Shown: in pieces, positions 89 through 5,197 of the stretch
How positions within the stretch are numbered: position 1 is the stretch's first letter
How the letters are laid out: the number at the start of each line of letters is the position of its first letter
Virus record (IMG/VR): IMGVR_UViG_3300009129_000085
Coordinates: 1 to 24,909 of that record
Length of the DNA stretch: 24,909 bases
Direction: 5' to 3' (one strand)
DNA from: a virus
Translations under genes and position numbers: made by a program
Notes under the pieces: model-generated
The model's input: the letters and a program-made list of their open reading frames with translations, nothing else
Database searches by the model: none
Told to the model about the DNA's origin: nothing

Positions 89-527
89 ACTATGCAATGA
101 GTTGCAATTACGGGTACGCTAATTATATTATATAGTTGCAACCAGTTGCATAATCGGGTGGTATTTTATGATACTTGTTGCAGCACTCATGGCTACCCTT
201 GCAACTAGGTGAGTATGCAAGCATGTGACTATGCAACTTGATGACAGCAATCGTGTGCCGTCAGGCGTAGGTATACAAACCCATTGCATATGCCATAGCA
301 CACATAAGCAACCACATGATATGATACTTAATGTATACTATGCAAGGAGCAGAGCAACAGCACGCATAAGGAGCATGTTGCATACTGTATGGATGCCAAT
401 GATACCAAGGGCTGTGACACTGTATGCCTATGCAAATGAATGAGTATGTGTGATGGTGTATAGTGTGTAGGTGCATGGCACTCACTTGCAGTGAAACGTG
501 TTGCACACTGGCATTATACCTATGCAA
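89..527. repeat. Array of TATGCAA / TTGCATA heptamers
   Basis: Exact TATGCAA occurs at 91, 214, 230, 339, 429 and 521. Its reverse complement TTGCATA occurs at 146, 284 and 378. That is nine copies in under 440 bases, against about 0.05 expected by chance in a random sequence of this size. Five of the six forward copies are preceded by CT or AC in a longer form, (A/C)CTATGCAA at 89, 228, 337, 427 and 519 for four or five copies, and a near copy ACTATGCAG lies at 652-660. Related TTGCAA/TTGCA words fill in between (102, 136, 178, 199, 486, 501). Only a few scattered copies were noticed in the coding part of the window. The density and both orientations suggest binding sites for a phage protein. 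Confidence 0.7.
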
Positions 528-704
528 TTGTGTGTGGGCATACGAATGATGTGCCACATGGGGCATAAGGGGGGCATACCCCAGTCCGTATTGGTGCATT
601 ACCCCTCAAAACTTTCTCGACCAAATTACGGGGATTTGAGCTAAGGCACATACTATGCAGAGCCTACTCCTTCCCCACGCTAAATAAATATATAGGAGTC
701 CATT

Positions 705-1508
705 ATGGGCGATATAACACTACTCTCGGTAGCTAGTGGGTATAACCTCACTTCTATCAATGCAAACTTTACAACTTTGAAGAATAGTATCAATGATGAT
801 GTGCTTCACCTTAACGGTGGCAACAATGTAATGGCACAAGACCTTGATATGAACTCAAATCGAATATTAAATCTAACGGCTGCGGTAGATGCAGCAGACC
901 CAGTACGGAAAGCCGAGTTTGATGCTTACTTGCTGTCGGTATCATCACTAGCGGTAGTACCACTCCAACAAGCACGACAAACAGGTAACGGTAGTACGAC
1001 AGCCTTTAATGCTCCTTCTACTGCGTACCAAAGCGAAGCGTCATTCTTTATTCAAGTTGATGGCGTAACTCAACGTCCTGCAACTGACTATACTTGTAAC
1101 GCAAGCGGTAATATCGACTTCACTACTGCTCCACCTAATCAAGCGGATATTGACATCCGACTATTCCAACCAACCACTACTCCTTTTGCGGTAAGTCTTC
1201 AAATAACTACTAAAGCGGCAAATACTATCAATGCTGGTGTTGTTGCTCTTGGTAACTATAACTACCTTGAAATTGATACGGCTGGTGCGGCAAGTACGGA
1301 CGACCTTGATACTATCACAGGCGGAATTTTCGACGGACAGATTATTATCGTCAAAGCGGCTGATTCGGCTCGAACAGTGGTATGTAAAGATGGAACGGGC
1401 AACTTACGACTTGCTGGTGACTTCTCACTCGACCATGCAGATGACCGTATTCAGTTAATGTATGATGGGACTAATTTTGTAGAACTATCACGTTCTAGCA
1501 ACGCATAG
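705..1508 (+). CDS. Tail fibre / adhesin adaptor protein
   Basis: This 267-residue virion protein probably connects the tail to the spike encoded next. Residues about 43-73 contain the pattern MDMNSNRILNLTAA followed by DPVRKAEF, the short repeat-like motif common near the N-terminus of phage tail fibres (known from the family). Residues about 88-156 match a frequent phage-fibre module with the landmarks GNGSTTAF, VDGVTQ, TDYT and APP. The last 70 residues look like a beta-rich tip with GQIIIVKAADSARTVVCKDG. AGGAG seven bases before the ATG supports the start. It stands at the head of the structural operon, 8 bases before the spike gene, so the two are likely made together. Which of the two touches the host receptor cannot be told from sequence. 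Confidence 0.7.
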   Translation: MGDITLLSVASGYNLTSINANFTTLKNSINDDVLHLNGGNNVMAQDLDMNSNRILNLTAAVDAADPVRKAEFDAYLLSVSSLAVVPLQQARQTGNGSTTAFNAPSTAYQSEASFFIQVDGVTQRPATDYTCNASGNIDFTTAPPNQADIDIRLFQPTTTPFAVSLQITTKAANTINAGVVALGNYNYLEIDTAGAASTDDLDTITGGIFDGQIIIVKAADSARTVVCKDGTGNLRLAGDFSLDHADDRIQLMYDGTNFVELSRSSNA

Positions 1509-3092: not shown

Positions 3093-3590
3093 ATGGACAG
3101 AGATAAACTAAAGGATTCGAGGGGGCGACCCCTCACTCAATCCTTATTTCTTGAGATAGGATATAAAACAGAGTTCGCTGTATACACACTGGACGATGTG
3201 GACAAGAAGTATAAAGGTAAGACTTATCCATCCCTGAAAGCCCTATACTTAGAAATGGAAGACCCCATTGAGTACAACTTCGCAACCACACACCTGCTAG
3301 GGTGGCAACATTGGCAACGCTTGTGTGCAAACAAAATCGTTGGTAAACATGTTGCAGAATGGAGAGAAGAACTTGAACTCAAATTACGGTCTGACGCTAT
3401 TAGTGAGATTATTGAAATCTCTACTACAGAGAAAGGTTTTCAAGCAGCGAAGTTCGTTGCGAAGAAAGAGTGGGAAGTCAAACAGGCAGGTCGCCCGAAA
3501 GTCGTTGACCAAGAGAAGGAGGACAGGATTCAGGAGAAACTAGAGGACGAGTTTTCGGCAGACATCATACGACTTGGAGATAGGAAGTAA
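3093..3590 (+). CDS. Terminase small subunit (DNA-recognition)
   Basis: This 165-residue charged protein is placed directly before the large terminase, with a TAATG stop/start overlap. By position and size it is the small terminase, which recognises the packaging site and hands DNA to the motor. An N-terminal region with SLKALYLEMEDPIEYNFA and LLGWQHWQRL is followed by a mostly helical, Lys/Glu-rich C-terminal half (EKLEDEFSADIIRLGDRK) that would suit oligomer formation and motor contact. It is longer than T7 gp18 (89 residues). The repeat-rich leader at 1-660, some 2.4 kb upstream, is a candidate target, but nothing in the sequence proves it. The assignment rests mostly on gene order and general character. 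Confidence 0.7.
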   Translation: MDRDKLKDSRGRPLTQSLFLEIGYKTEFAVYTLDDVDKKYKGKTYPSLKALYLEMEDPIEYNFATTHLLGWQHWQRLCANKIVGKHVAEWREELELKLRSDAISEIIEISTTEKGFQAAKFVAKKEWEVKQAGRPKVVDQEKEDRIQEKLEDEFSADIIRLGDRK

Positions 3591-5197
3591 TGGCAGAACT
3601 AGACTGGCTTGAAGAAGCCAAACAGAAACTAAAGTTAATGCCAAAAGCTGCTAAGGAAGTACGGGAACGAGCGTTGGAGGACTTACCCTTCTTCGCCCGA
3701 CTCGTTAACGTAGGTTACATGTACGGACAAGTGCATGATGAATGTTATCGCTGGATGCAAGACTATACCCTGTTTGGTCAGGGCGGCTCTGAACTCACGG
3801 CAAACAAACTAATCATGTTACCTCGCGCACACTTGAAGTCACACATGGTGGCAACTTGGGTAGCTTGGATGATAGCACGACACCCCGAAGTAACAATCCT
3901 TTATGTATCAGCAACGGCAGAACTTGCAATCACTCAGCTATACGCAGTACAGAACATCTTGGCTGGTAGCACATTCATGCGTTACTTCCCTGAGTATGTA
4001 CACCCACAAGAGGGTAAGCGTGAGAAGTGGAGTAGTGTTAAAATATCGGTTGACCATGAGAAGCGTAAGAAAGAAGGCATCCGAGATTGCACTATCGCTA
4101 CTGCTGGACTTACAACAAATACGACAGGCTGGCACGCAGACATCGTGGTGGCTGATGACTTGGTTGTTCCAGAGAATGCCTACACAGAGGAGGGCAGGGA
4201 CAGTGTTAAGAAAAAATCGTCGCAATTCACTTCTATCCGTAACGCTGGTGGTTTTACTATGGCGTGTGGAACGAGATACCATCCTAACGACATTTATGCA
4301 ACGTGGAAGACACAGATATTTCCAACCTACACAGATGAAGGTATCATCGAAGACTACCTCCCTGTCTGGGAAATCAAAGAGTATGTTGTAGAAAAAGATA
4401 ACATATTCACTTGGAAACGTGCGATACGAGAAGATGGTAAGGCATTCGGATTCGACCTGCGTACACTAGCCCGTATCAAGGCAGAGTACGAGGATAGAGT
4501 TCAATTCTATGCTCAATATTACAATGACCCTAATGACCCACACAGTGAGCGTATAGGTCGAGACAGCTTCCAATACTACAGCCCACAGTTCTTGAATAGA
4601 CAGACTGGCACATGGTATTTCAATGGACGCAAACTCAACGTGTATGCAGCAGTCGATTTCGCATTCAGCTTGAACAAGGCTGCGGATTACACGGCTATCG
4701 TTGTTATTGGCATTGACAGTGAACGTAACATCTATGTCCTAGATATAGACCGATTCAAATCTGACCGTACAACAGAATACTTTAAGCACATTAAGGAACT
4801 TCACGCGAAGTGGGGATTCAAGAAGCTACGGGCAGAGGTAACGGTTGCTCAGAAAGTAATCGTAAACGACATTAAAACCTACTGTGCTAAAGACGGCTTA
4901 CGCCTATCCATTGATGAATTCCGACCTAGTAAGAAGGAAGGCTCGAAGGAAGAACGTATAGCGGCTGCATTGGAACGTAGGTATGAAGACTTAGAGGTTT
5001 GGCACTTTGAGGGTGGATGGATACAGATTCTTGAAGACGAGCTAGTACAGGCACGACCAGCACACGATGATGTGAAGGATGCCCTAGCATCGGCAGTAGA
5101 GATAGCAGTACCACCAGCAGGACGTAAGAGTTCCTTCTTGTCAGACATTCAAACAAAATCTAAGAAGCGTAATCGCTTCGGAGGAGTATCGTACTAA
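3590..5197 (+). CDS. Terminase large subunit (packaging ATPase/nuclease)
   Basis: This 535-residue motor protein pumps DNA into the prohead and cuts it. The N-terminal ATPase has a deviant Walker A, PRAHLKSH (residues 78-85), in place of the usual GxxxxGKT. It is followed by a beta-strand with ILYVSAT and a Walker B region IVVADD (acidic pair D189-D190). The C-terminal RNase-H-like nuclease is marked by AAVDFAF (D356), a central glutamate-bearing strand near LRAEVTVAQ and HDDVKDALASA (D493, D494, D497), consistent with a three-carboxylate metal site. Its length is close to T7 gp19 (586). It overlaps the small subunit and the portal by one base at each end through TAATG junctions, so the packaging genes are translationally coupled. 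Confidence 0.93.
   Translation: MAELDWLEEAKQKLKLMPKAAKEVRERALEDLPFFARLVNVGYMYGQVHDECYRWMQDYTLFGQGGSELTANKLIMLPRAHLKSHMVATWVAWMIARHPEVTILYVSATAELAITQLYAVQNILAGSTFMRYFPEYVHPQEGKREKWSSVKISVDHEKRKKEGIRDCTIATAGLTTNTTGWHADIVVADDLVVPENAYTEEGRDSVKKKSSQFTSIRNAGGFTMACGTRYHPNDIYATWKTQIFPTYTDEGIIEDYLPVWEIKEYVVEKDNIFTWKRAIREDGKAFGFDLRTLARIKAEYEDRVQFYAQYYNDPNDPHSERIGRDSFQYYSPQFLNRQTGTWYFNGRKLNVYAAVDFAFSLNKAADYTAIVVIGIDSERNIYVLDIDRFKSDRTTEYFKHIKELHAKWGFKKLRAEVTVAQKVIVNDIKTYCAKDGLRLSIDEFRPSKKEGSKEERIAAALERRYEDLEVWHFEGGWIQILEDELVQARPAHDDVKDALASAVEIAVPPAGRKSSFLSDIQTKSKKRNRFGGVSY

Follow-up and report, generated by a model that had tools for sequence, protein, structure and literature searches.

What nine copies of one heptamer, TATGCAA, do within a short stretch of gene-free DNA is the question raised by the left end of the virus fragment studied here. 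The window (i.e. the whole stretch of DNA that was analysed) is the 24,909-base record IMGVR_UViG_3300009129_000085, which carries no end repeats. A first-pass annotation, made from the letters alone, had read the array as iterated binding sites serving as an origin of replication, a packaging or terminal-repeat site, or promoter/operator sites.

The window and its leader

Judged from its predicted proteins, the window is part of the genome of a marine-type bacterial virus, a Zobellviridae podovirus: the terminase large subunit (TerL), portal and capsid proteins are related to those of PA11, O4, CVT22 and VpV262, and the late genes stand in a matching order. The TerL protein is approximately 75% identical to those of the Pseudomonas phages PA11, O4 and TC6 (GenBank Zobellviridae records), and TerL relatives also occur in Zobellviridae phages of Vibrio, Salinivibrio and Klebsiella. 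From position 705 on, the late genes point rightward, and genes of early type (ribonucleotide reductase) occupy the right end of the window in leftward orientation. The left part is organised as follows:

1-704, no strand: gene-free leader, which in relatives lies between leftward early and rightward late genes and has the terminal repeat within it
705-1508, plus strand: first late gene, tail-fibre protein with a T7 tail-fibre N-terminal domain
3093-3590, plus strand: conserved protein directly before TerL (PHROG 8035), a small-terminase candidate by position only
3590-5197, plus strand: TerL

In PA11 and in Vibrio phage 1.264, the place matching 1-704 is a divergent intergenic region, and 1-704 was therefore interpreted as a divergent leader, truncated by the contig end. 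The array region had been described as free of genes, and this was upheld: neither of the open reading frames found there, 225-443 (+) and 261-599 (-), matched a PHROG family. Scans of the window or leader for tRNAs, Rfam families, promoters and terminators gave nothing useful, a DNA search with the leader as query returned chance hits only, and an IMG/VR search with the exact cut element of the window phage (see below) found no closer relative. The sister contig L002 (TerL 100% identical) begins inside TerL, so that it has no leader. At the left contig end, positions 1-60 are very AT-rich (18% GC), with a 16-nt imperfect inverted repeat at 21-36/48-63.

The TATGCAA array

The recount of the heptamers agreed with the first-pass annotation, which had reported six forward and three reverse copies:

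91-527, both strands: nine exact TATGCAA heptamers, forward at 91, 214, 230, 339, 429 and 521, reverse at 146, 284 and 378
88-155: strongest inverted pair in the array, arms 88-110 and 133-155 (23 nt, 78% complementary), each arm being a doublet of TATGCAA and TTGCAA

Copies elsewhere are indeed few and scattered, with just four in the remaining 24.4 kb. Counted along the whole window, the 13 exact copies compare with a shuffle mean of 4.7, and none of 100 shuffles reached 13. Within 60-700, there are nine copies, where 2000 dinucleotide-preserving shuffles of the same stretch averaged 0.53 and did not exceed 4, and a single one of these 2000 shuffles held any 7-mer with nine copies. The partial TTGCA words, noticed earlier as numerous, are likewise in excess: the TGCAA core occurs 18 times versus 3.7 expected (shuffles of 60-700). 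Because one-mismatch copies of TATGCAA are not enriched over the window (107 versus 98.8), the signal is the exact word. The spacing is irregular (16-92 bp between copies), and no helical phasing of the nine copies was detected (p 0.5).

Among 119 Zobellviridae-type loci (1.45 Mb), this is the densest dispersed 7-mer array: no other non-simple 7-mer has nine dispersed copies in 440 bp, and comparable cases were confined to repeats in L118, L139 and L078. In L118, near position 2988, GAGTGCA/TGCAGCA words are very dense (up to 27 copies in 440 bp), and this repeat sits approximately 1.9 kb from the cut predicted for that locus, towards the early genes.

Nowhere else in the window do pyrimidines and purines alternate as much as in the leader, and 33 of 35 genomes show an excess of flexible pyrimidine-purine steps in their leaders (mean z 1.66, with no control from other intergenic DNA). 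The words might accordingly be a by-product of a leader that was selected for such alternating steps (TA, TG, CA), or that drifts in their direction, with no specific binding. We consider this very improbable, since shuffles that keep the local dinucleotides yield 0.53 copies (maximum 4 in 2000 trials) and not nine.

As a replication origin, the array would consist of iterons for a phage or host initiator, placed beside the AT-rich stretch 1-60; dense iterated short words in gene-free DNA, next to such a stretch, are a likeness to the iteron origins of phages and plasmids. As a rule, however, iterons are evenly spaced and largely point the same way, whereas the copies here lie 16-92 bp apart in mixed direction, the leader has no DnaA-box-like site, and no initiator gene was seen beside the array, the early genes being off the contig. 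An origin is thus unlikely, and is kept alive, by analogy only, by two unrelated phage contigs. In these (L169:483-690 and L183:12954-13225), dense TATGCAA/TTGCATA arrays, mostly with 9-65 bp spacing, lie directly against the 3' end of genes for DUF3987 helicase/primases and look like origin iterons.

The word was also met in other settings. A gene for a Lin1244-type replisome organiser lies near a 120-bp stretch with 10-11 copies of TATGCAA in two related contigs (L214:598-717 and L191:4826-4935), and many of these copies form the palindrome TTTGCATATGCAAA; in L178:5790-6026, TTGCATATGCAAATTCC is repeated within tandem units of 52-63 bp.

A regulator of phage or host origin could also bind the words and control divergent early and late promoters. 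The leader is divergent, relatives encode a sigma-70-type factor, and the TTGCAA word forms the -35 of two weak promoter-like matches; but such matches are approximately as many as in shuffles (8 versus 4.9, sd 2.4), and nine sites across 440 bp exceed the usual operator. We therefore rate an operator array as improbable.

The conserved cut element and the predicted DNA ends

Direct terminal repeats are annotated in the leaders of ICBM1 (172 bp), VpV262 (138 bp) and RIO-1 (121 bp), and were confirmed as identical ends of the records. For the Cobaviruses, direct terminal repeats have been described in the ORF-free region between the modules, with a conserved G+C-rich part common to their 5' ends (PMC6775973), and a 711-bp terminal repeat in the leader region has been reported for Klyazma (PMC9960094). 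The 74-bp repeat of O4 is located elsewhere, and neither it nor the 127-bp repeat of Asterion was taken as an end (assemblers often use a k-mer length of 127).

A pattern common to PA11, Vibrio phage 1.264 and the window was extended to a 35-bp element and converted to a weight matrix, which found the element ahead of TerL in 36 loci and scored it at 17-49 (best reverse-strand score 12.8). Loci with the element are the window (560-627), L083, L088, L129, L014, L122, L016, L024, L031, L038 and approximately 35 more. The consensus of 46 sequences consists of three G-tracts approximately 9-10 bp apart, then TGCA/TTnCnCCTnAAAATTTCTC (the slash marks the cut), then AAATT; in the TGCA that precedes the cut and the TTTCT that follows, every position is kept in at least 43 of the 46 sequences.

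In RIO-1 and VpV262, the distance from the annotated end to the following TTTCT is exactly 14 nt. Written in the orientation of the window, the repeat edges read GGGGTGCA/TAGCACCTCTAACATTTCT in RIO-1 and GGAG/ACACACCTCGAATATTTCT in VpV262, and the counterpart in the window reads GGTGCA/TTACCCCTCAAAACTTTCTC. The annotated end of ICBM1 is 11 nt before TTTACT, i.e. within 3 nt of the predicted spot. Because the RIO-1 and VpV262 ends lie 14 nt before the TTTCT of the same element, the cut of the window phage was predicted at 598/599:

560-582, plus strand: G-tracts GGGG (560-563) and GGGGGG (569-574), with CCCC (579-582) replacing the third tract
593-627, plus strand: cut element GGTGCA/TTACCCCTCAAAACTTTCTCGACCAAATT, score 48.6 (best reverse-strand score 12.8)
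598-599: predicted terminase cut, at 14 nt before TTTCT, which would also be the late-gene-side limit of the direct terminal repeat
427-598: likely direct terminal repeat, with a left edge at 427-478 if it measures 121-172 bp as in RIO-1, VpV262 and ICBM1

The G-tracts at 560-582 are the counterpart of the conserved G-tracts found 20-40 nt before the cut in relatives. With the cut element at annotated ends between early and late modules, as for T7-type terminal repeats in Zobellviridae, a direct terminal repeat is strongly indicated for the window phage, with its late-side edge predicted at 598/599. Relative to their own predicted cuts, the record of TC6 begins 18 nt and that of Asterion 9 nt further left. 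Unlike RIO-1, VpV262 and ICBM1, Klyazma (L038/L041, OP125547) disagrees with the prediction: its reported 711-bp repeat stops short of the edge expected from the element, 81 bp to the left of it. For many Zobellviridae, among them metagenomic ones that have never had their ends mapped, the element allows the DNA ends to be predicted to the base.

The array at the packaging junction

Relative to the predicted cut, the whole array lies towards the early genes. With a repeat of 121-172 bp, the copy at 521 and, at the long end, also the copy at 429 would fall inside the repeat and the rest just beyond it; a Klyazma-like repeat (711 bp) would cover the whole array.

When the array was sought at the same position in related phages, no relative's leader was found to have TATGCAA repeats, the sole exception being the hexamer TATGCA, with 4-5 copies in the leader of Vibrio phage 1.264. 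The array therefore need not be a terminase recognition site. It is the cut element (approximately 560-627), and not the array, that tracks the DNA ends, so that the family-wide terminase signal most likely lies there. The first-pass proposal of a packaging or terminal-repeat site is thus well supported for the neighbourhood, where relatives have their repeats and the cut element predicts a DNA end at 598/599, but the sequence that tracks the cut is distinct from the array.

Private iterated words were found in a few leaders (ACCAGT, seven copies, in VpV262; ACATGTC in L043; ATGCAGG in L145; ATATATA-type words in L016), and a strong iterated word is absent from most relatives' leaders. The idea of a strong private array in every relative was not supported: only few leaders pass, and the leader is mostly not the most repeat-dense stretch of its genome. 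It is quite unlikely, in our estimate, that the junction has two parts, a family-wide cut element that fixes the end and a fast-changing, lineage-private array with an equally fast-changing partner protein; were this true, every lineage would mark its own genome ends.

The Pac protein of phage P1 binds repeated hexamers at pac. In a P1-Pac-like system, the small terminase subunit would bind the TATGCAA words and direct the large subunit to a nearby cut. As at P1 pac, a short word is clustered in both directions near the terminase cut: only 71 bp separate the end of the last copy from the predicted cut, pac arrays are compatible with mixed orientation, and a small conserved protein is encoded directly before TerL. 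P1 is, however, a headful packager with methylation-dependent, GATC-bearing hexamers, whereas a direct terminal repeat is predicted for the window and TATGCAA contains no GATC. In addition, the cut element is conserved in the family without the array, which places the recognition signal common to the family elsewhere, and the small-terminase candidate is 49-62% identical to proteins of relatives that lack the TATGCAA word. A pac recognition array is possible, but unlikely. The candidate protein (3093-3590) gave an AF2 model with a pLDDT of 75.5; a fold search in the PDB returned no match with an E-value below 3, and a profile search gave no clear assignment.

The best explanation, which we hold tentatively and at somewhat less than an even chance, is that the array is a short-repeat array in a Zobellviridae terminal leader, similar in its layout to the T7 SRL, with iterated protein-binding sites at the packaging junction. 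The nine TATGCAA words would be the putative binding sites of one protein, most likely phage-encoded, with a possible part in end processing. This protein would assemble at the junction of the concatemer, or at the genome end that enters, and help in converting the junction into two ends, with the terminase cutting at the separate G-tract and TGCA/TT element. Besides the terminal repeats of relatives and the cut element, points in favour of this reading are the density of the array, the private words in a few relatives' leaders and the excess of flexible pyrimidine-purine steps; points against it are the lack of TATGCAA repeats in relatives' leaders and the deviating repeats of Klyazma and O4.

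Measured in the same way, T7 has 11 copies of CCTAAAG in nt 1-340: those at 17, 41 and 60 lie inside the 160-bp repeat, and eight copies lie at 175-338. In T7 as in the window, a gene-free leader thus holds a heptamer approximately ten times, next to the terminal repeat (a predicted one in the window) and with some copies within it, towards the early genes. The two arrays differ in that the T7 copies point in one direction and are approximately 13 bp apart where tandem, whereas the window copies are mixed and irregular; T7 also has two more copies left of the right repeat, and the word and the family are not the same. VpV262, RIO-1 and ICBM1, ICBM2 and ICBM3 share with the window the intergenic position and the cut element, with annotated ends 0-3 nt off the prediction, but their leaders lack the TATGCAA word. 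To our knowledge, the role of the short repeats in the T7 SRL is still unsettled, and a second, unrelated array at the same place in another family would make the function of such repeats a comparative and testable question.
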